NCBI GenBank assembly: GCA_904420575.1
Contig: CAJFVW010000152.1
Location: 1-42,019, forward strand
DNA length: 42,019 bases
Direction of reading: 5' to 3'
Source: an uncultured Gordonibacter sp.
GTDB taxonomy: Bacteria > Actinomycetota > Coriobacteriia > Coriobacteriales > Eggerthellaceae
A model generated the notes under the pieces. It was not told where the DNA came from and ran no database searches. It saw only the letters and a list, made by a program, of their open reading frames with translations. Position numbers and translations under genes: made by a program. This document shows positions 10,626-21,134 of the stretch, one piece after another (position 1 is the stretch's first letter; each line of letters starts with the position of its first letter).

Positions 10626-11060
10626 CTACTCCTGGCCGCGAGCGGCAGCGCGTTCGCGCTCCTTTTCGGCCAGACGCGCGAGCGGCACGATCCTCATCAC
10701 CACGACGCCCTCCGACACGACGTCGCCTTCGTCGTCGTAGGCCGCGACGTTCCAGAACTGCCTGACGCCGCCCGTCCGCGCCGGCTCGATGCGGTCGAGC
10801 TCGGCCACGCCCAGCAGGGTACCGGACGCGACCGCCTTGCGGTGGCGCACGTGCACGTCCACGCCGAAGGGACGCTCGCTCTCCAGGTCGGTGCCCTGCT
10901 GGGCGCCCAGGCTGGCCACCGTCTCCAGAAGCGCGATGGTCGCACCGCCATGCACGAACCCGAACGGCTGCAGCACGTCGGGCATGACGGGCATGACCGC
11001 CTCGACGCGTTCGTCGCGCACGCTCGCCGCTTCGATGTGCAACGTCTCCACCAGCGTCAT
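10626..11060 (-). CDS. PaaI-type hot-dog fold thioesterase
   Basis: Predicted acyl-CoA thioesterase of the PaaI/YdiI group. The 144-residue product has the family motif FGFVHGGATIALLETVASLG, in which the HGG and the following Glu form the active site, and later strands VRHRKAVASGTLLGVAEL. The ATG at 11060 overlaps the stop of the GGDEF-EAL gene by 4 nt (ATGA), so translation is coupled and it is the last gene of that operon. The link of a thioesterase to c-di-GMP signalling is unexplained. The tail AEKERERAAARGQE is charged. Substrate unknown. Confidence 0.87.
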   Translation of the reverse strand: MTLVETLHIEAASVRDERVEAVMPVMPDVLQPFGFVHGGATIALLETVASLGAQQGTDLESERPFGVDVHVRHRKAVASGTLLGVAELDRIEPARTGGVRQFWNVAAYDDEGDVVSEGVVVMRIVPLARLAEKERERAAARGQE

Positions 11061-14000
11061 GACCGCCCTCCTTCGGCGATCGAGCGAATGAGCCGCTTGA
11101 TGTCGCCGGGCACGTCCTGGGGTGCAGCCTGTGGCCTGCCCAGCAGGTAACCCTGCAGGTAGTCGGCGCCAAGCTTGATGATGCTTCGCAGCTCGGCCTC
11201 CGTTTCGATGCCTTCGGCGACCACGCTGATGCCGCGGTCGTGCGCATAGGAGATGAGGCTCTTCGCGATGTCCTGGTGATCTTTCACCGTGTCGATGTCG
11301 CGCACGATGCCCATGTCGATCTTCACGAAGTCGGCGCGGTAATCCAGAAGCGACGTCTCTCCGTTGTAGCCGCTGCCGAAGTCGTCGATGGCGAGCCGCG
11401 CCCCGAAGCGGTGTGCGAGGGCCTCTTTGTAGAGCGCCATCTCGCGGCTGTACTCGCTTTCGGTGATCTCGATGACGACCCGCTTCAGCAGATCTCCGTA
11501 GCGCTCTTGAAGTGCCAGCTCGTCGTCGGCGGAGAGCCGTTGCGTCGCGATGCTGTTGACGAACAGCGTGATGCCGTCCGATTGAGGGAACCGCGCATAC
11601 GTCTCCAGCGCCCCGAAGAACGTGACGTGTTCCACCCGGTAGAGCTTCGACTGCGACCGCGCGAGCGCGAGCACCCGGTCGGGCGTGGGAATCGACTCGA
11701 TCTGCGGGCGCATGAGCGCCTCGTAGGCCGCCACCTCGCCCGCCCGGGCGTCCACGATAGGCTGGAAGTGATAGCTGATGAGGCTTTCCTCCAACAAGCG
11801 GTTCAGCTCTTCCTTGTTGTTCAGGATGAACGATTTCTCGCGGTAGCTCTCGTCCTCGAACGTGAACAGCTCGCCCTTGCGGCTGTTCTTCGCCATGTAC
11901 ATGGCGAAGTCGGCATACTCGCGCAGGCGTGCGAAGTCCCCGGCGTCCTGGGGATAGTAGGCCACGCCCATGGACGCGCGCACCTTGAGCGTGCGCCCGT
12001 CCGGCGCTTCCAGTTCGCTCGTCTCGAGCGAATGACGGAACGCGTCGAACAGCGCGTCGATGGAGGCGCGGTCGGGACGCCGATCGACGAACACCAGGAA
12101 CTCGTCGCCAGAGATGCGTGCGAACAGGCCCGACCCCTGGAACGTGAGGGACACGGCGCGGCCTGCGGCCTTGATGTAATGGTCGCCCCAGTCGTGGCCG
12201 TAGGTATCGTTGATGTACTTGAGGTTGTCCAAATCCAGCATCATCATGGCGGCGATCGGAGGAGGGTCGTCCTCCAGCCGTTGCGTCACCTCGCACTCGA
12301 ACGCGCGGCGGTTCAACAGGCCGGTGAGGATGTCGTGATCGCGTTCATGCTCGATGCGCCGGCGCGTCTCGATCTCGTGCGTCACGTCCTCGACGAGGCC
12401 GAACACGCGGTTCTGCTCCTTGTTCTCCATGATGACGAGACGCACCCAGCAGGTCTGTCCGGGGTCGGACAGCAGGTAGCGCCAGGGAGCCTCTTCCTCC
12501 GCGTTTTCCCAGAACGCCCCCAACAAGCGGCTGAACTCGCCGTGCCGTATCACCGTGCCGGTCATGCCGTCGAGCAGCGATTCCATGCGAGGATCGGGGT
12601 GCTTGAGCAGCGAAAGCGTCGTGAAGAACCCGTCTGTGCAGGTGACGGCATCGGTTTCCGCGTTGTATTCGAACGCGCCGATCGTGCGGTCGGACAGTTC
12701 GAGGATCTGCGAGAGGCGCGATGCGGAGTAGGCCACCTCCGTGCCGAGCGTCTGAATGGCGTCCGACAGCTCGTCGATCTCGACGATGCCGGTTGAAGCG
12801 AACTCGATGGGCTGCTCGGGTCGGGCCGAACGCACCTCGCCCATGAGGTGGCGCAGGCGGGACGAGGATATCCAGGCGACCAGTCCCGCGATCACGATGC
12901 CGACGAGCAACGAGGCACCGAAGACCCCGAGCAGGTTGCGCTCGAGCGCGGTGGACGAAGAGAACAGCGCGTCCTGGGACTCAAGCCCCATGAGGGCCCA
13001 ATGCTCGGAAGCGAACGGCGACGTGCTGTCGTAGAGCGTGATCTCGCTCATGGCGACGACGGCCTCCTTGCCTCCAGCCTCCTCGCTGACCGGCCGCACG
13101 AGCGGATAGGCGCGCCCGTCGAGCACGGCGGCGATGTCCCCGTCCTCCACGTAGAGGCTTTGGGACGCGCCGGTCGTCGCGAGCACCTCGTAAGTGCGAG
13201 TCGATCCTTCCGCGGGCATCACGCCTGCGTCGCGCTCGTAGCCGCCGTCCTCGTTCGTCATGGCCAGAATATACGAGCCCGTCCCCTCGTCGTCCAGCTC
13301 GCGGTACGGCATGAAGTCGGTGACGCGGTCGAGCCGCACCTCCACGCCCAGCACGCCAACGACGGTGCCGTCCCCGTCCTGAATGGGCATGCTGTACGTG
13401 ATGGAAGACGTGCCGGCCCAGCCCAGATCGACCGGACGCCCCCAGTAGCCGAGGTCTTCCATGTCGGCCGTCGGGTGTTCGGCGGCTGCCTGCATCGGCC
13501 GATAATAAAAAGCGCTGCGCGCGTCCCCTTCGGGCGCAAGGGGGTAGGTGGCCGACCACGACGAGTCCAACGCGATGTCGAGCTTCTTGCTCACGCTGAT
13601 GGGGCAGACCGCAAGCATCAGGTCGGCCCCGTTCTCCAGATCGGCCATCGGGTTCGAGTCGCGGATGTAAAGCGCCGCGTGCACGGAGCCCTCTTCGGAG
13701 GCTGCCGCGTCCGCGCCCGCAAGCACCAGGTACAGCCCGTCGATCTCGGCACGCCGCGTGAAGAAGACCAGCCGCTTGGCCGTCGCGTCAAGGACGGCTA
13801 TCGAGGCCTCCGATCCCGGCGTCAGATCGTCGGCGGTCGCGTCCAGCGAACCAAGGACGTCGTCGATGTCCCCCTCCACCGCCTGGGCGAGAGAGTCCAA
13901 TTCGGACCATCGGAAGACCATGTCGTTCTCCAGATAGCCCGCATGGCTGGATGTTCGCTCGGAAAACAGGTCGTAGGCGTCGGCCTTCATGGTGACCGTC

Positions 14001-14134
14001 GTGCCACTGTTCGACAGCACGCCGAAGCAAATGATGCCCTGCAGCGCGATGGCGATGCAGAACGGCACGGCGACGAGGAGCGTGAACGAGATGCCTCGTC
14101 GGTCCGGCCTTCTATGTCGTGCGGTGCGACTCAT
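11057..14134 (-). CDS. Membrane-bound GGDEF-EAL protein with periplasmic sensor (c-di-GMP turnover)
   Basis: Large (1025 residues) receptor expected to make and/or degrade cyclic di-GMP. Order: membrane helix at about 15-38; periplasmic dCache-like domain to about 400 (contains ITYSMPIQDGDGTVVGVLGV); second helix at about 400-425; HAMP/PAS-like region; GGDEF domain at about 615-770; EAL domain at about 785-1015. The GGDEF signature reads SGDEF (ARISGDEFLVF), a variant often still active, and no RxxD inhibitory site precedes it. The EAL domain keeps the expected residues: EALMR, LFVNSIA, IEITESE, AIDDFGSGYNG, VKID, EGIET, LQGYLLGRP. Phosphodiesterase activity is therefore likely. It lies 56 nt after the solute-binding lipoprotein gene and overlaps the thioesterase gene. 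Confidence 0.92.
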   Translation of the reverse strand: MSRTARHRRPDRRGISFTLLVAVPFCIAIALQGIICFGVLSNSGTTVTMKADAYDLFSERTSSHAGYLENDMVFRWSELDSLAQAVEGDIDDVLGSLDATADDLTPGSEASIAVLDATAKRLVFFTRRAEIDGLYLVLAGADAAASEEGSVHAALYIRDSNPMADLENGADLMLAVCPISVSKKLDIALDSSWSATYPLAPEGDARSAFYYRPMQAAAEHPTADMEDLGYWGRPVDLGWAGTSSITYSMPIQDGDGTVVGVLGVEVRLDRVTDFMPYRELDDEGTGSYILAMTNEDGGYERDAGVMPAEGSTRTYEVLATTGASQSLYVEDGDIAAVLDGRAYPLVRPVSEEAGGKEAVVAMSEITLYDSTSPFASEHWALMGLESQDALFSSSTALERNLLGVFGASLLVGIVIAGLVAWISSSRLRHLMGEVRSARPEQPIEFASTGIVEIDELSDAIQTLGTEVAYSASRLSQILELSDRTIGAFEYNAETDAVTCTDGFFTTLSLLKHPDPRMESLLDGMTGTVIRHGEFSRLLGAFWENAEEEAPWRYLLSDPGQTCWVRLVIMENKEQNRVFGLVEDVTHEIETRRRIEHERDHDILTGLLNRRAFECEVTQRLEDDPPPIAAMMMLDLDNLKYINDTYGHDWGDHYIKAAGRAVSLTFQGSGLFARISGDEFLVFVDRRPDRASIDALFDAFRHSLETSELEAPDGRTLKVRASMGVAYYPQDAGDFARLREYADFAMYMAKNSRKGELFTFEDESYREKSFILNNKEELNRLLEESLISYHFQPIVDARAGEVAAYEALMRPQIESIPTPDRVLALARSQSKLYRVEHVTFFGALETYARFPQSDGITLFVNSIATQRLSADDELALQERYGDLLKRVVIEITESEYSREMALYKEALAHRFGARLAIDDFGSGYNGETSLLDYRADFVKIDMGIVRDIDTVKDHQDIAKSLISYAHDRGISVVAEGIETEAELRSIIKLGADYLQGYLLGRPQAAPQDVPGDIKRLIRSIAEGGRS

Positions 14135-14190
14135 GCCGAAGATGCGCCTCCGACGTCCTTTCGGTCAGCCGATGCCCGGAGACTCCTGCG

Positions 14191-15666
14191 TCATGCAAGG
14201 GCATCGGAAAGCTGGCGGTCGAGATCGGCAAGCCAAGCCTTGAAATTGTCGTCCGCGAGATACGGGGCCACGGCATCGGCACGCGACGAGCCCGCCGCCA
14301 CGGCTTCGTTCACGGCAGCGGCATCGGCATTTGCCTTCTGCGCGAGCGACGTCTCCAGGACGTTGCGCGCCTCCACGCCGCCCTCGAACGGAGGGTTCGC
14401 ATACACGCCCGCCTTGATGGTTTCAAGCGTGGCGGGAAGGTTCACCAGGTAGTTCGTCGGCTCCGTTTCCATGGCCTTCGCGGCGGCTTCGATGTTCTCG
14501 CTAGTGAGTGCATCCTTCTTGACGGGAATGTAGCCTGCCGTGATGGAGAACGCCGTGTTCTGCTGCGTGTCGGTGAACCATTTCAGGAACTCGACGCAGG
14601 CCGTTTCCGTTTTCTCGTCGGACTTCGTGACCACGAAACCTGCACCCTGCTGCGGAGAGCAGGCCACGCCGTTTTCGAACGTTGGATTGGGCAACGCGCC
14701 GAACTCAATGGGATACGTCGTCGCGTCGTCGACCGTGACTTCCCGAGGGAAGTACACCACCGACGTGGACGAGCCGATGAAGCAGACGAGGTTGCCCGTC
14801 TTCACGGCATCGGAGCGGAACTTGCCCTGATCCGAGAACCAACCTTGCACCATAGGCACGTAGTAGTTGTCCCACAGGGCGCGCATCGTAGGCTCGTCCA
14901 GCTCGACGGAGCCTTTGCCGTCCTCGATGCGGAAGATCTCGTGGCCAAGCTGCTTCGAGCCGCACAGCAGGTAGTTCGCCATGGCGTCACGGCCGTAGAA
15001 CGGCTGCCCGTCGTCCGGTTCGGGGGTGAGCGAGTCGGTCCACTCGTAGTAGCTTTGAGCCGTGCGCGTGACGCCTTCGACCGTGGCCAGATCCTCCAGC
15101 GAAGCGCCCGTCGCGCTGGAGAACTTCTCCCAGTCCGTGAGGTTGATCTGGAGCGTCTCCGTGGACTTGCAGACAGGGAACACCTTGAGGCTGCCCTTGC
15201 CGTCGATGTCGCCCTCCTGGAGGAAACTGTCTACGAACTGCGCTTTCTCCTCGTCGGTCAGGTAGCCCGACAGGTCGGCCACACGGCCCATGCCATCGAT
15301 CACGAAGGCCGTGTCAGCATACGAGAGGAAGGCGTCAGGCATGGCTGCGGCGCCGACGCGTTCCTCGGCCGCGTCCGTCACGGCCTGCGCCAGCTCGTTC
15401 ACGCCGCCTTGGCTCGCATGGGTGACCACGATGCCCAGGTCCTTGCCACGCGTGTCGTTGAATTCCTTGACCAGGTTTTCGAACGCCTCTTGCTGGGCGC
15501 CGTTGTAGTACGTCCACAACTCGATCTGAACCGGGTCGGACGGGTCGAGCACCGAAGCCTTGGCCTCGTCTTTGGCGGGCGAGGCCCCTTGCGTGCAGCC
15601 CGCCAGGGCGAGCGAGGCCGCCATCATGCAGGCAATGACGGCAGTGGCGATAGAGCGGATCCTCAC
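14191..15666 (-). CDS. Solute-binding lipoprotein (ABC family 1 type), no transporter partner
   Basis: Periplasmic or surface binding protein. The 491 residues start at GTG 15666, chosen because AGGGGGAG lies just upstream and a lipoprotein signal follows at once (VRIRSIATAVIACMMAASLA then LAGC, with lipid Cys at 24). The mature part begins VQIELWTYYNGAQQEAFENL, the usual first strand of sugar-type binding proteins. It continues with KVFPVCKSTETLQINLTDWE and ACVEFLKWFTDTQQNTAFSI. No permease or ATPase genes are present; the next gene, 56 nt on, is the Cache-GGDEF-EAL receptor. It therefore probably presents a ligand to that receptor rather than to a transporter, as NspS does for MbaA in Vibrio. 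That role is inference; ligand unknown. Confidence 0.88.
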   Translation of the reverse strand: MRIRSIATAVIACMMAASLALAGCTQGASPAKDEAKASVLDPSDPVQIELWTYYNGAQQEAFENLVKEFNDTRGKDLGIVVTHASQGGVNELAQAVTDAAEERVGAAAMPDAFLSYADTAFVIDGMGRVADLSGYLTDEEKAQFVDSFLQEGDIDGKGSLKVFPVCKSTETLQINLTDWEKFSSATGASLEDLATVEGVTRTAQSYYEWTDSLTPEPDDGQPFYGRDAMANYLLCGSKQLGHEIFRIEDGKGSVELDEPTMRALWDNYYVPMVQGWFSDQGKFRSDAVKTGNLVCFIGSSTSVVYFPREVTVDDATTYPIEFGALPNPTFENGVACSPQQGAGFVVTKSDEKTETACVEFLKWFTDTQQNTAFSITAGYIPVKKDALTSENIEAAAKAMETEPTNYLVNLPATLETIKAGVYANPPFEGGVEARNVLETSLAQKANADAAAVNEAVAAGSSRADAVAPYLADDNFKAWLADLDRQLSDALA

Positions 15667-15731
15667 GGCTCCCCCTGACTGTCCCGCATGCGCGGAACGG
15701 ACGGCGTTTTTTGTTCGAAACGAGATGTCAT

Positions 15732-15737
15732 TGTATA
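15732..15737 (-). promoter_or_regulatory. Candidate -10 of the solute-binding/GGDEF-EAL operon
   Basis: Minus strand TTTGCTATACAATG contains an extended -10 (TGC plus TATACA) about 65 nt ahead of the GTG start. No good -35 hexamer lies at 16-18 bp, which is common for extended -10 promoters. Only AT-rich spot in the gap. Confidence 0.45.
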
Positions 15738-15907
15738 GCAAAGTGGCGCTCCCGGCAGCACAAGAATGCATTTGAGCTTTTTTTGAGGTTGAGAGCGCAG
15801 GTCAGGGAGAGCGCGCCAAGCGCAGGCCGAAGCCGCCACGAGGCAGGCGCGAGGCGACGGGATCGGAGGAAGCCCGCCGTTCGTGGTCCGTCGCCCGGCG
15901 ACAGTCG

Positions 15908-17131
15908 TCAGCCGCGGCGCTCGTAGGGAGGGTGCGGAGGCCGGGGCTCGCGCTCCTTTCCGGCGGCAAGGGCGCTCGAATGCGCGGAGGCGGCCCGCAT
16001 GGGCGTGCGGGCGTCCTTGGACGGACACGGAAGCGGCGGCGCGCTCTTGACCTCGTCCAGACGCTTCGCCGTGGCCTCGACGCCTCTCATCCGGTCGCGC
16101 TTGTCGGACACGCGCACCGTCTTCTTCGCCTCGTGGCGGAACGTCTTCGTCGTCTGGATGAGGATGGCCCCGATGAGGAACGGCATCCAGAACACGATGC
16201 CGCGGTACACGAGCGCGATGGCCATGCCGGCGGCGCTCGAAACGCCAAAGGACGTGAACGCCACCAGCACGGCCGCCTCCACGACGCCGACGCCCTGCGG
16301 CGTGATGGATATCATGGCGAACAGCGTGGCCACCACATAGCCGCAGATGAGCGCTTCAGGATGGTAAACGCCGAACCCGACGCCCACCAGGCAGAAGCAC
16401 GCGAGCTCGCATGACGAGGCCACGATGGAGCAGCCGAACGTCTTGGCCGTGGCCTTGGGGTTGCGCGCGATGAGGCCGGCCGCGTCCGAGAACGAGCATA
16501 CGATGCGCTCCACCCACGGGTCGAGCGGCGCCTTCTTGAAGCGCGCGCGGATGCGGTCGACCAGACGCTCGACGGGGCGCAGGATCCGTAGGACGAGCGC
16601 AGGCCGCTTGCGGCCGAGCACGAGCACGCCCACCATGGCCGACACGAGCGCGATCACCAAAAGGCCCAGCAGGAACCACAGCGGCGAGAGCCCCACGGTG
16701 AACGCCAGGATGGCGAACCCGACGAGCATGATGGTGGCAAAGCCCGAGTCCACCGTGATCTGCATGAGCAAGGCCGCGCTCGTCGCCTTGCCGGGATCGA
16801 TGCCGCGCCGGCGCGCATCGTCCACCACCAGCGTCGTGCCCGCCAGGTTGAGCGAGGGGGCGATGGTGTTCATGAAGAACGTGCCGAACACGAGCGGCAG
16901 GGTCGAGCGCGCGTCCATGTGCTCGTCGACGGCTTCGAACGCGAAGGAGTACGCGAAGCTCTGCGAGAAGTATTTTCCCAGCTGCGTGCACAAGGCGGCG
17001 ACGAGCGGGATGGCTGCGCCCTTCTTCATGGTCTCCACCAGCTCGACCAACTGGTCGCCGCGCAGCAGCACCACCGCCAGCACGATGACGATGACCAGGC
17101 CGATCAGCAGGTTGCGGACGTTGAACTTCAC
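15908..17131 (-). CDS. LPG-synthase-type membrane protein (UPF0104), second paralogue
   Basis: Integral membrane protein related to the flippase/transmembrane half of MprF (lysylphosphatidylglycerol synthase TM family). The 407 residues begin at GTG 17131, which overlaps the stop of the ATP-grasp gene (GTGA). About eight helices follow, including NLLIGLVIVIVLAVVLL. The family pattern is APSLNLAGTTLVVDDARRRG and then ISITPQGVGVVEAAVLVAF, near-identical in layout to the paralogue at 18279-20042. The cytoplasmic tail is basic and Pro-rich, ending PPHPPYERRG. No aminoacyl-transfer domain is fused, so any enzymatic step must come from a partner, most simply the ATP-grasp protein next door. Confidence 0.88.
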   Translation of the reverse strand: MKFNVRNLLIGLVIVIVLAVVLLRGDQLVELVETMKKGAAIPLVAALCTQLGKYFSQSFAYSFAFEAVDEHMDARSTLPLVFGTFFMNTIAPSLNLAGTTLVVDDARRRGIDPGKATSAALLMQITVDSGFATIMLVGFAILAFTVGLSPLWFLLGLLVIALVSAMVGVLVLGRKRPALVLRILRPVERLVDRIRARFKKAPLDPWVERIVCSFSDAAGLIARNPKATAKTFGCSIVASSCELACFCLVGVGFGVYHPEALICGYVVATLFAMISITPQGVGVVEAAVLVAFTSFGVSSAAGMAIALVYRGIVFWMPFLIGAILIQTTKTFRHEAKKTVRVSDKRDRMRGVEATAKRLDEVKSAPPLPCPSKDARTPMRAASAHSSALAAGKEREPRPPHPPYERRG

Positions 17132-18282
17132 GGTTGCAGGAACTCCGTCAGGTCGCAGGTCTTCACGAACTCCAGCTCGTCGGCCGTGTCCTGGTCGGTT
17201 TCCAGGAACAAAAAGCCGTAGCTGCCCACCCGGTCCACGTCGAAACGCCGCATCTCCAACACGTGGGAGAACCGCTTTTCGAACGCGTCGTAGTCGAAGC
17301 GGGCGCCGGCAGGCGCGCCTGCCGGCGGCGTGAGCAGCGACATGGAGTACACCTTGCCCTCCTTGCCGCGAAACACGTCGTCCCATGCAGGGGCTTCGCC
17401 GTCCAAAAACGCCGCGTACGTGCGAAAGCCGTAGGCCAGCCAACTCACGTCCGTGCCGCCCAGCCCGGCGAAGCGCAGCGGGTTGAACTCGATGGGGCTC
17501 ACGTGCCCGTCGCGCACGCGCACCTCCACGTGCACCGGGAAATTGCGCGCGCCCACGCGGGCGTTCACGCGGTCGAGCCACGATTCGAACAGGGCCGCGT
17601 TATCGCGCACGAGAGGGGCGCTCGTCACGTAGAGGCGGTCGCTCGTGTCGGCAGGGCCGGCAAAGTCGTGCCGCAGGACGTCGAGCACATGGGCGGCTCC
17701 CGTCTCGTCGAAGTAGGCGTCCAGCGCGTACTCGGTGCCCTCCAGATAGCCTTCCAGCATGAACGACCCGGTGCCCACCACGCTTTCGGGATAGAGGTCG
17801 TGCCAAGCGGATGCGTTCTGGGCGATGTCGGAGAGCGCACGCTGCCAGTCGTCCCGGTCATGCACGGCATGCACGCCCATGCTGCAGAAGCCCACCGAAG
17901 GCTTGAGCACGAACGGCGTTTCCAGTCGTTCGAAGTCGAGTTTGAACAGCTCGTCCACCGAGCAGGTCCGGAAAAACAGGTCCGGATCGAGCGGTTTCAG
18001 CTCCTCGCGCATGCGCGCCTTGTCCTTGAACAGCTGGATGGCGTGTACGAGGCCCGGGTTGCCCACATGGTCGACGATCCACGCCAGGGCGTTCTCGGAA
18101 TTGGCGTACACGCGCTCGCCTGCGCCCAGGCGCCGCGCCGCCTCGTCTTCGGGAACCAGGTTCAGAGCACGTCCCTGCGCGGCCAGGTCGCGTGCCGGGG
18201 CGTTGTCGAGAACAGGATGCCCCGACTCCTCCAGCCAGGCCACCAAAGGTTCCGATACGTATGGCTCGTCGAGCACGATCAT
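17128..18282 (-). CDS. ATP-grasp ligase-like protein between two LPG-type membrane genes
   Basis: Predicted ATP-dependent carboxylate-amine (or -thiol) ligase. In 384 residues the ATP-grasp fold shows: a pre-domain from MIVLDEPYVSEPLVAWLEES; the nucleotide-binding strand FVLKPSVGFCSMGVHAV (Lys about 127); EGYLEGTEYALDAYF at about 177-191; and the Mg-binding stretch HVEVRVRDGHVSPIEFNPLR at about 251-270, with the Glu and Asn of the usual ENP-like motif (EFNP). The ATG at 18282 overlaps the upstream gene's stop, and its stop overlaps the next gene's GTG, so all three are translationally linked. No substrate can be assigned. Context suggests it attaches an amino acid or peptide to a lipid or precursor that the membrane partners move. 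Confidence 0.85.
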   Translation of the reverse strand: MIVLDEPYVSEPLVAWLEESGHPVLDNAPARDLAAQGRALNLVPEDEAARRLGAGERVYANSENALAWIVDHVGNPGLVHAIQLFKDKARMREELKPLDPDLFFRTCSVDELFKLDFERLETPFVLKPSVGFCSMGVHAVHDRDDWQRALSDIAQNASAWHDLYPESVVGTGSFMLEGYLEGTEYALDAYFDETGAAHVLDVLRHDFAGPADTSDRLYVTSAPLVRDNAALFESWLDRVNARVGARNFPVHVEVRVRDGHVSPIEFNPLRFAGLGGTDVSWLAYGFRTYAAFLDGEAPAWDDVFRGKEGKVYSMSLLTPPAGAPAGARFDYDAFEKRFSHVLEMRRFDVDRVGSYGFLFLETDQDTADELEFVKTCDLTEFLQP

Positions 18283-20042
18283 GAAGGCTCGTCCTCCTTG
18301 CTTGGGAATTCGACAATGGAAAGTATACCTTCCTCGCGGGCATGATGCTCGATCTCCGCGCCATTTACAGCCTGCCGTTCCCAACCCGTTTTCCGACGCA
18401 CTTCGTCAGAGGCGGACGGGCGCTCCCGCAACGAACGCACGGCCTCGGCCGCCGCATGTCCGCCCGCGGCCAATCGCTCGCGCACGGCCGCCGGCTTCGG
18501 AACGTCTGCGGAAGCCCCCTCCTGCCCGTCGTCGGGCGCGGCCTGCCCGCCTACGGACCACTCGGACGAGGCCGCGCGGGAGGCTCTGGCGGACGTGCGG
18601 GAGGCGCGCCAGGCCCGGAACCGCTCGGCGTTCTCGCGCGCCTCCCGCACCAGGCGCGCGCGGTCCTCGCGGGGAACGAGCGGCCGGTCGAAGGCGTCGC
18701 GCTTCCAGAACAAAAACAGCGCCAGCAGCACCAAGGCCACGGCCACCTGCACGGTGTTCACGAACAGGAACTCCGCGCCGGCCACCAGCACCAGCACCGC
18801 CATAACGAGGGCCCAGGCCGTGCGCAGGCGCAGGATGAGCCCCACCGCCAGCACCACCATGAACGCACCGCCTACCACCAGCGTGGGTCCCAAAAGCAGC
18901 CCGCCCATGTCGATCCACGACGTCAGGACCGTGAACGGCTCGAACGGGGCGGGAACGAGCGCCAGGCCGACGTTCACCAGCCCGATGACCAGCAGGATGG
19001 TGCCCGAAATCCAGGCAATGTCCTTTGCGCGCTGCTCTTCGGTGGGGTTGCGCTTGCCGGCGAAGAAGCCCGACTGCGACAGCAACACCGCGCCGATGCA
19101 GAACGGGATCCAGAACATGATGCCGCGGTACACCAGCGCGATGGCCGTGGCCGTGGCCAGCGAGGTGCCCTGCGCCGTGAGGATGGCTGCGATGGCGGCC
19201 TCCACCACGCCCACGCCCTGCGGCGTGGGGCTGAGGATCACCGAAATGGCCGCCACGGCGAAGGCCGCCACCAGCGCGGCCACGTCGGTGCAGCCGAACG
19301 CATAGCCGATGGCCACGAGGCACGCCATGTTGAGCACGGCCGAAAACGACGCGTAGGACACCGTGACGAGCGTCCCCTGGGGGTTGCGCGCCAGGATGGT
19401 GGCGGAGCCGACGAACGAATTGGCGGTCTTGCGGCCCCAGCCCGGCGAGAGGTGCTTCTTCACCAGGCCGAGCAGGCGGTTCAGCAGCGCTTCTGCGCCC
19501 AAGAACACGCGGAACAGGATGCGCGGCCTGCGGTAGCCCACCACGAACATACTGGACAGGATCAGAAGCGTGCCCGCCAGAAGCAGGCCGCCGACGAGGA
19601 AGAGTGCGTTCATGGATCCGGACAGAAGCATGGTCAGAAAGCCGATGATGGAGATGACCAGCACGGCGGCGAAGTAGCCGATCTGCGAGAGGATGGCTCC
19701 GCTGGTGGACTGGCCGGCGTCGGCCCCCTTGCGATGCGCGTCGTCGATGATGAACGCAACGCCGGTGGCGCCCGAGAACAGGCAGAACGTGTTGATGAAC
19801 ACGAGCGAGAAGATGAGCACGACGTTGTGCCAGAAGCCCGTCTTGTGGCCCACGGCCTCGAACGCCGCGTCGTAGGAGGCGGCCTGCACCAGATGGCGCG
19901 CCAGCATGAGCGCCACCGACACCACGAGCGGCACGAGCGCACCGGTCTTCAGGGTGTCCAGGAACTGCGCGAGGTAGTCGACGTTGGCAATGAGGAAGCA
20001 CACCGCCACGATGCCCAAGAGCAGCAGCAACGCCTTTTTCAA
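18279..20042 (-). CDS. LPG-synthase-type membrane protein (UPF0104) with extra helices and tail
   Basis: First gene of the three-gene set; 587 residues from TTG at 20042. That start is chosen because GGGAG lies 7 nt ahead and the first helix (ALLLLLGIVAVCFLIANV) follows directly; a TTG at 20066 has a ribosome site too close. Residues to about 325 match the MprF flippase-type family, with FINTFCLFSGATGVAFIIDD and ILSPTPQGVGVVEAAIAAIL. Another four or five helices follow (ISGTILLVIGLVNVGLALVP onward), absent from the shorter paralogue. A long cytoplasmic tail rich in Arg, Ala and Glu comes last. The stop overlaps the ATP-grasp start (ATGA). Likely function: lipid or lipid-linked substrate translocation. 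Confidence 0.87.
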   Translation of the reverse strand: MKKALLLLLGIVAVCFLIANVDYLAQFLDTLKTGALVPLVVSVALMLARHLVQAASYDAAFEAVGHKTGFWHNVVLIFSLVFINTFCLFSGATGVAFIIDDAHRKGADAGQSTSGAILSQIGYFAAVLVISIIGFLTMLLSGSMNALFLVGGLLLAGTLLILSSMFVVGYRRPRILFRVFLGAEALLNRLLGLVKKHLSPGWGRKTANSFVGSATILARNPQGTLVTVSYASFSAVLNMACLVAIGYAFGCTDVAALVAAFAVAAISVILSPTPQGVGVVEAAIAAILTAQGTSLATATAIALVYRGIMFWIPFCIGAVLLSQSGFFAGKRNPTEEQRAKDIAWISGTILLVIGLVNVGLALVPAPFEPFTVLTSWIDMGGLLLGPTLVVGGAFMVVLAVGLILRLRTAWALVMAVLVLVAGAEFLFVNTVQVAVALVLLALFLFWKRDAFDRPLVPREDRARLVREARENAERFRAWRASRTSARASRAASSEWSVGGQAAPDDGQEGASADVPKPAAVRERLAAGGHAAAEAVRSLRERPSASDEVRRKTGWERQAVNGAEIEHHAREEGILSIVEFPSKEDEPS

Positions 20043-20206: not shown

Positions 20207-20275
20207 GGGCAGCACGTCAGCGGGCGCGGCGGCGGGCAGCACGTTAGCGGGCGCGGCGGCGGGCGGCACGCCAGG
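20207..20275. repeat. 27-bp tandem repeat across the 3' end of the J-domain gene
   Basis: GCAGCACGT-CAGCGGGCGC type units recur at a 27-bp period from 20209, 20236 and 20263. The middle unit contains the stop codon TAA (minus strand 20246-20244), so the last coding codons and the 3' flank share a duplicated sequence. A slipped copy probably moved or created the present C-terminus (RAARRRAR). Confidence 0.65.
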
Positions 20276-21134
20276 CGTTGAAGCGGGTGCGCAGGTTCGC
20301 CACGTCGAAGGCGGCGGCTATCATGAATACGAGCGCCAGGCCCACGGTCACCACACCACCGCGAGGCGCCACGAACAGGGAAAGCAGCGCAAGCACCACC
20401 ATTGCCGGCACCAGGAAGCCGAAAAGGCACGTACCGAGGCGCTTCCACAACCCATAGACGAACGAGACGGCCACGTACAAAAACAGACCGGAGGACACCG
20501 CGCCCCCGATGGTCATCACCGCCAGAAGCGCCGCTTTGCCCGCAATGACGAGCGTCTCGCGCCGCAGGTCGCGCGCCGCCGCGGCCAATGCCTCTTCGCG
20601 CGTGGGCTCGGGCTCGGCGCGGCGGAACGGCGCAAAGGGGTCGAACGGGTCGAAAGGCGCGCCCGGCCCGGCCTGGGAGCCACCTTCGTACGTGCGGCCG
20701 CCGTCCCACGACGTCCACACCCAGGTGGTCCGTGCATCGCCCGGACGCCCGCCGAACGGCCAGCCTGCGAAGGGGTCGTCGGTGCCGCCTTGCCCTTGCC
20801 CGTGGCCTCGCGCGCCGCCCCTCCCGACGCCGCCCACGCCGCCGGCGGACGCTCCCCCGGGAAACGGCCAGTCGGAGGGATGGGCATAGGGGTTCGCGTA
20901 CGGGCGCGGGTCGCGCCGCGGGTCGAACTCGGGCGTCCAGGAACGGTCGAGCAGCACGTCGCGTGCCTCGTTGATGCGCTTCGTCAGCTCTTCGGCGTGG
21001 GCGCGCTCGTCGGAATCGAGCGCGAACTTGTCCGGGTGATGCGCGATCACCAGCTTGCGGTGGGCCTGTTTGACCTCGTCGTCGGTCGCGCCGTCGGCAA
21101 GCCCCAGAATCTTGAGCGCTTCGGATTTCTTCAT
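20244..21134 (-). CDS. J-domain (DnaJ-like) membrane protein
   Basis: N-terminal J-domain followed by a membrane region; 296 residues. The start MKKSEALKILGLADGATDDE places helix I at the N-terminus, and the HPD triad needed to stimulate Hsp70 ATPase is at 33-35 (AHHPDKFAL). Residues about 85-165 are Gly/Pro/Asp-rich and low in complexity. Three or four hydrophobic segments follow (LVIAGKAALLAVMTIGGAVS, FLYVAVSFVYGLWK, FGFLVPAMVVLALLSLFVAP). There is no zinc-finger or client-binding domain, so this is a type III J-protein that could recruit DnaK to the membrane. GGCAGG precedes the ATG closely. The end lies in a tandem repeat. Confidence 0.85.
   Translation of the reverse strand: MKKSEALKILGLADGATDDEVKQAHRKLVIAHHPDKFALDSDERAHAEELTKRINEARDVLLDRSWTPEFDPRRDPRPYANPYAHPSDWPFPGGASAGGVGGVGRGGARGHGQGQGGTDDPFAGWPFGGRPGDARTTWVWTSWDGGRTYEGGSQAGPGAPFDPFDPFAPFRRAEPEPTREEALAAAARDLRRETLVIAGKAALLAVMTIGGAVSSGLFLYVAVSFVYGLWKRLGTCLFGFLVPAMVVLALLSLFVAPRGGVVTVGLALVFMIAAAFDVANLRTRFNAWRAARRRAR

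Follow-up and report, generated by a model that had tools for sequence, protein, structure and literature searches.

The ATP-grasp gene described here is probably an independent gene that was inserted into a conserved chromosomal block already holding synthase-less MprF-type scramblases, with which it is locally co-translated. The window, a 42,019-nucleotide stretch of DNA from an uncultured Gordonibacter sp., carries this gene (B) between two genes for related membrane proteins (A and C), all on the minus strand. The three-gene order is real and partly conserved among relatives, and its parts come from known families. No paper on an A-B-C gene set was found in our literature search, and the remark in the first-pass annotation that no system with this order has been described therefore stands for the literature searched.

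Gene A (18279..20042, minus strand, TTG start codon) encodes a 587-amino-acid protein that comprises an MprF-type translocase region (PF03706 plus extra transmembrane helices) and a hydrophilic tail of ~130 amino acids, without a synthase domain. Gene B (17128..18282, minus strand, ATG start codon) encodes a soluble ATP-grasp enzyme (PF13535) of 384 amino acids. Gene C (15908..17131, minus strand, GTG start codon) encodes a 407-amino-acid PF03706/TIGR00374 membrane protein, which likewise is without a synthase domain. The stop codon of A overlaps the start codon of B by 4 nt (ATGA, 18279..18282, minus strand), and the stop codon of B overlaps the start codon of C to the same extent (GTGA, 17128..17131, minus strand). 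These coordinates, the strand and both overlaps had been reported in the first-pass annotation and were correct on re-check, as was its reading of the three genes as translationally coupled at this locus. A Shine-Dalgarno-like sequence for B, AAGGAGGA, is located within the 3' end of A (18292..18299, minus strand), and this motif recurs upstream of B in several relatives.

Of the two overlaps, A/B is the better conserved. The 4-nt A/B overlap is also present in loci from Gordonibacter, Eggerthella sinensis, Raoultibacter and Candidatus Rubneribacter, and the combination of ATGA with AAGGAGG in the end of A is found in the window, Gordonibacter, Candidatus Rubneribacter avistercoris and Raoultibacter. 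In Eggerthella sinensis the ATGA overlap is kept, and the Shine-Dalgarno sequence differs (AAAAAGGAG). GTGA is found at the B/C junction in the window and in loci L047 and L048, and the other adjacent B-C junctions have a short gap, mostly of ~26-90 nt and at most ~250 nt. Gene B is not a chance occurrence, because it has full-length relatives with 36-74% identity in which 30 residues are invariant (n=74), and because its overlap with A is recurrent.

Both A and C match the Pfam family LPG_synthase_TM (PF03706; cut-off 33.4 bits), with 63.4 bits (E 3.3e-17) for A and 105.5 bits (E 4.7e-30) for C, which bears out their initial description as MprF/LPG-synthase-type membrane proteins. The two are 34% identical across 313 amino acids and are the sole PF03706 proteins of the source genome, in which no PF09924 synthase domain was found (86%-complete assembly); PF09924 is present in only 4 of 61 relatives. 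A bifunctional MprF requires this C-terminal aminoacyl-transferase domain, which is absent from both A and C as had been noted at the outset, and their scores against the bifunctional MprF model NF033480 (81.7 bits for A and 72.6 bits for C) are below its cut-off of 600. Two motifs had been described as common to A and C; the first, TPQGVGVVEA, is indeed present in both, but the second is looser than claimed, reading FSGATGVAFIIDDAHRKG in A and LAGTTLVVDDARRRG in C (DDARRRG).

Several observations place A and C close to the translocase of MprF, as known from P. aeruginosa (PaMprF) and R. tropici (RtMprF). A profile built from A and C aligns with PaMprF (E 1e-4), and the GVGV-EA and YR motifs line up. 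The Glu-Arg gating pair is kept, with E281/R306 of A and E285/R310 of C aligned to E295/R319 of PaMprF; it is invariant across 18 aligned A and C sequences, and the Tyr-Arg that follows is also present. The published MprF salt bridge is E295-R319 in PaMprF and, equivalently, Glu280-Arg304 in RtMprF (PMC8131360, PMC11980842). A spans positions 11-435 of the 841 positions of the MprF profile, including the next transmembrane helices, whereas C is missing the second transmembrane subdomain, and A differs from MprF in its variable hydrophilic tail. For A, the AF2 model has low confidence (pLDDT 68) and served for fold assignment only; its five best Foldseek matches are all MprF. PaMprF is a promiscuous scramblase, and we infer from family membership that A and C move lipids.

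Two known proteins offer further comparisons. HexF, encoded in the hexSDF operon of C. difficile, is a synthase-less MprF-like flippase co-encoded with other enzymes (PMC10128005), an arrangement that A and C resemble. However, the partners of HexF are a glycosyltransferase-type synthase and a deacetylase that act on a glycolipid, whereas the partner here is an ATP-grasp ligase. E. coli YbhN resembles C in being a stand-alone MprF-type transport domain (PMC11980842), although YbhN lies near cardiolipin synthesis genes and C near purine genes and an ATP-grasp gene.

B is matched by ATP-grasp_4 (PF13535) over model positions 2-160 of 160 (E 5e-57, 192.4 bits against a cut-off of 27). The original proposal that B is a soluble ATP-grasp protein with the ATP and Mg residues of ligases is upheld, in that K86, K127, E177, E253, E265, N267 and R270 are among the 30 residues invariant in its 74 homologues. 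With an AF2 model of high confidence (pLDDT 92), the top Foldseek matches are the L-amino-acid ligases BL00235 (3VOT) and BacD/YwfE (3VMM), with RizA (4WD3), another L-amino-acid ligase of the ATP-grasp superfamily, close behind. By sequence, too, B matches BL00235 and BacD alone among PDB entries, and BL00235 is the best of all by sequence profile (E 1.4e-13) and by structure (E 3e-16). B shares with these ligases the ATP-grasp core and the conserved Lys, Glu, Asn and Arg positions, but is only 12-18% identical to them over the fold (TM ~0.6-0.7), is ~40 residues shorter than BL00235 and ~90 shorter than BacD, and carries signatures of its own (HDFxxxxDTSDR and PIEFNPLRFAG). Its score against the NCBIfam equivalog for BacD is 21.8, compared with a cut-off of 850. 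On the basis of fold and conserved residues, B may work like an amino-acid ligase: it would activate a carboxylate as an acyl phosphate and then join this to an amine, and its substrate would most likely be soluble. A function as a D-Asp-ligase-type peptidoglycan cross-bridge ligase was considered and rejected, as the murein of Eggerthella lenta is of type A1-gamma, which has no cross-bridge.

The three genes have been gained and lost as modules, and they occur apart from one another. We surveyed 140 Eggerthellaceae genomes for the presence and arrangement of A, B and C and found B in 58. A-B-C is contiguous in 15 of these genomes, B-C is present with A undetected genome-wide in 14, A-B is present with no adjacent C in 4, and A and C are located 2-12 kb downstream of B in 5, where pilin-like genes intervene in the loci read; the arrangement is looser or dispersed in the remainder. 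C is lacking altogether in 2 genomes with A-B. Among genomes without B, 50 of 82 retain A and/or C. Co-occurrence with B is above that expected for independent genes for C (50/58 genomes with B versus 33/82 without; Fisher p 3e-8) and for A (33/58 versus 20/82; Fisher p 2e-4), with shared ancestry ignored in both tests, and 57 of the 58 genomes have at least one of A and C. However, because PF03706 is near-universal within Eggerthellaceae, this co-occurrence is weak evidence for a functional link.

The block in question reads purM-purN-XdhC-purH ... thioesterase-tatA-greA-lysS. In genomes without B, C resides between purH and the thioesterase, tatA, greA and lysS genes at 9 of the 15 C loci examined, and A resides beside DnaJ, purH or thioesterase genes at 8 of 11 A loci. 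A congener (G001) carries on one contig XdhC, a PurH-like gene, C (92% identical), thioesterase, tatA, greA and lysS, with neither A nor B between them, and no B orthologue was found in this genome (an 84%-complete MAG in which the C stretch itself is contiguous). Elsewhere, B-C-thioesterase is contiguous beside rpsF-ssb-rpsR-rplI and off the usual block (L069, with gene names taken from protein starts), and in L052 the thioesterase follows B, with C missing between. In the scenario that we favour, the purH-lysS block would anciently have held A and/or C, and B would have entered beside them in part of the Eggerthellaceae. B would be co-translated with A and co-expressed with C, and its chemistry would depend on neither. 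A and C would move bulk membrane lipids between leaflets and perform no head-group chemistry of their own, as proposed for YbhN and HexF.

Beyond this family, B stands apart from MprF-like genes in the loci examined. Homologues of B are found in Eggerthellaceae, Desulfovibrionaceae, Opitutales, Negativicutes, Clostridia, Methanocorpusculum and others, and the Actinomycetota sequences form a single group in the B tree (100/99). The first-pass annotation had advised a search for the gene order across Coriobacteriia and beyond; among the Eggerthellaceae genomes and 33 B loci from outside the family, A-B-C was recovered in the 15 Eggerthellaceae genomes given above and in none of the 33 loci. No MprF-like open reading frame was found near B in these 33 loci (562 kb) with the A and C profiles, even at E 10, and the neighbours of B there are varied and unrelated; by the terms that the first-pass annotation had set (homologues routinely apart, with unrelated neighbours), this counts against its proposal outside Eggerthellaceae but not inside. 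These neighbours were also considered as a source of functional clues, and none recur save among near relatives. Across anaerobes, Methanocorpusculum among them, the B family occurs widely and is seemingly solitary (L078-L118).

The cytoplasmic tail of A carries a conserved motif, WExQAxxG (TGWERQAVNGA, amino acids 552-562 of A; 18357..18389, minus strand), that follows a variable linker. Among A proteins linked to B, 12 of 14 have the motif, against 2 of 11 among those from genomes without B, as counted by eye and with ancestry as a confounder. This enrichment hints at a partnership between A and B, and the motif is a possible candidate for a docking peptide for B on A. However, it is absent from A in L033 and L082 even though A and B are adjacent there. 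The idea that the motif is strictly dependent on B was rejected, given variants in L139 and L141 (no B) and in L148 (B elsewhere).

Some of these results count against the independence of B, namely the retention of the 4-nt A/B overlap across several genera, the co-occurrence of B with A and C, the contiguity in L069 and the tail motif. A rival reading is a split MprF. B would then stand in for the tRNA-dependent synthase domain by coupling an amino acid or peptide to the head group of a lipid or to a lipid-linked precursor, and A and/or C would bring this product to the outer leaflet, perhaps with B bound to the tail of A. The absence of PF09924 from the source genome and its rarity in relatives, the translational coupling of A and B, the 57 genomes in which B is accompanied by A or C, and the enrichment of the tail motif are consistent with this arrangement. 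There is also precedent in HexF, encoded with lipid-modifying enzymes (PMC10128005), and in the suggestion that the transport domains of MprF work with many different lipid-modifying partners (PMC11980842). Nevertheless, we regard a split MprF as unlikely, given that B is solitary outside Eggerthellaceae, that 14 genomes keep B-C without A and the congener keeps C without B, and that PF03706 is near-universal in the family. Moreover, E. lenta, a genus-mate of the A-B-C-bearing E. sinensis, is reported to have no lipids other than phosphatidylglycerol, diphosphatidylglycerol and four uncharacterised glycolipids (PMC3035228). B may have a lipid product. A fuller version, in which the ligase binds the WExQAxxG tail of the synthase-less MprF and passes on to it an amino-acid- or peptide-modified lipid made on the inner leaflet, would amount to tRNA-independent lipid aminoacylation in gut Eggerthellaceae, and we give it an outside chance.

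Similarly improbable is a reading in which the product of B is a soluble amide or dipeptide used in envelope metabolism, and shared operon regulation is the sole tie of B to C and the thioesterase. B is structurally near dipeptide ligases, and contiguous B-C-thioesterase is seen across many genera and also at another chromosomal location; however, C-thioesterase is kept in genomes without B, the thioesterase follows B without C in L052, and no further pathway gene recurs. The first-pass annotation had suggested that the ligase and the two paralogues form one pathway, or that the paralogues form a heteromeric translocase. A heteromer requiring both A and C is very improbable and has been largely refuted by the genome survey. 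The two are 34% identical paralogues co-encoded in 15 genomes, but they co-occur no better than chance (29 genomes with both, 24 with A only, 54 with C only; p 0.48), many 99%-complete genomes have just one of them, and many genomes without B hold A and C in the same block. The modular history, with B-C in the absence of detected A, A-B in the absence of C, and C alone in the congener, is at odds with a heteromer or a three-step pathway that is obligate, and it fits an optional partnership. Because this sister species keeps C without A and B, a dedicated three-part lipid machine is unlikely. Origins in defence or phage were rejected (no PADLOC match at E <= 0.01 for A, B or C, and no PHROGs match), as was recent plasmid transfer, for which a plasmid collection yielded only partial matches of 27-30%.

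We therefore return to an independent B in a conserved block as the favoured reading. It implies that no obligate common pathway is needed for a striking three-gene order with overlaps to arise in such a block. B also points to a widespread and apparently uncharacterised ATP-grasp family of anaerobes, spread over the bacterial groups listed above and Methanocorpusculum, and A and C are synthase-less MprF proteins from human gut genera, about whose lipids little is known. A split MprF, if true, would provide a new way of making modified membrane lipids.

Other features of these loci were also recorded. A thioesterase homologue of the hotdog fold (4HBT/DUF4442) is present in the window at 10638..11075 on the minus strand, these being the coordinates of a tblastn match with no gene called. 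Such a gene is located closely 3' of C (or A) in many Eggerthellaceae, with or without B (for example, L062:16221-16715 and L046:12362-12802). In the window, genes for an SBP_bac_8 lipoprotein and a GGDEF-EAL protein (11057-15771, minus strand) separate C from the thioesterase. The same insert is found in Eggerthella, Gordonibacter, Paraeggerthella and Enteroscipio loci, and in Raoultibacter L049, where no C is adjacent, the pair comes after B.

Upstream of A, the window carries a gene for a DnaJ-domain protein with putative C-terminal transmembrane helices (20244-21134, minus strand), and a DnaJ-domain gene often adjoins A in relatives, including genomes without B. The purH position is occupied either by a 524-amino-acid bifunctional PurH or by a divergent gene, and these alternate even inside one genus (L119:4994-5749; L047:250-1428; L058:7986-9164; L060:7927-9108). 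The divergent gene product is ~392 amino acids long in L047, L058 and L060, and the G001 version is 25% identical to the C-terminal half of PurH. In Adlercreutzia, the genes between B and A and/or C were considered as candidate lipid genes, and this was rejected because those tested are pilin-like (FctA, SpaA). They encode surface proteins with FctA/SpaA domains and FAQTGD-type C-terminal anchors (L058:11355-20516, L061:11439-13043, L062:11284-13053 and L073:11328-13388).
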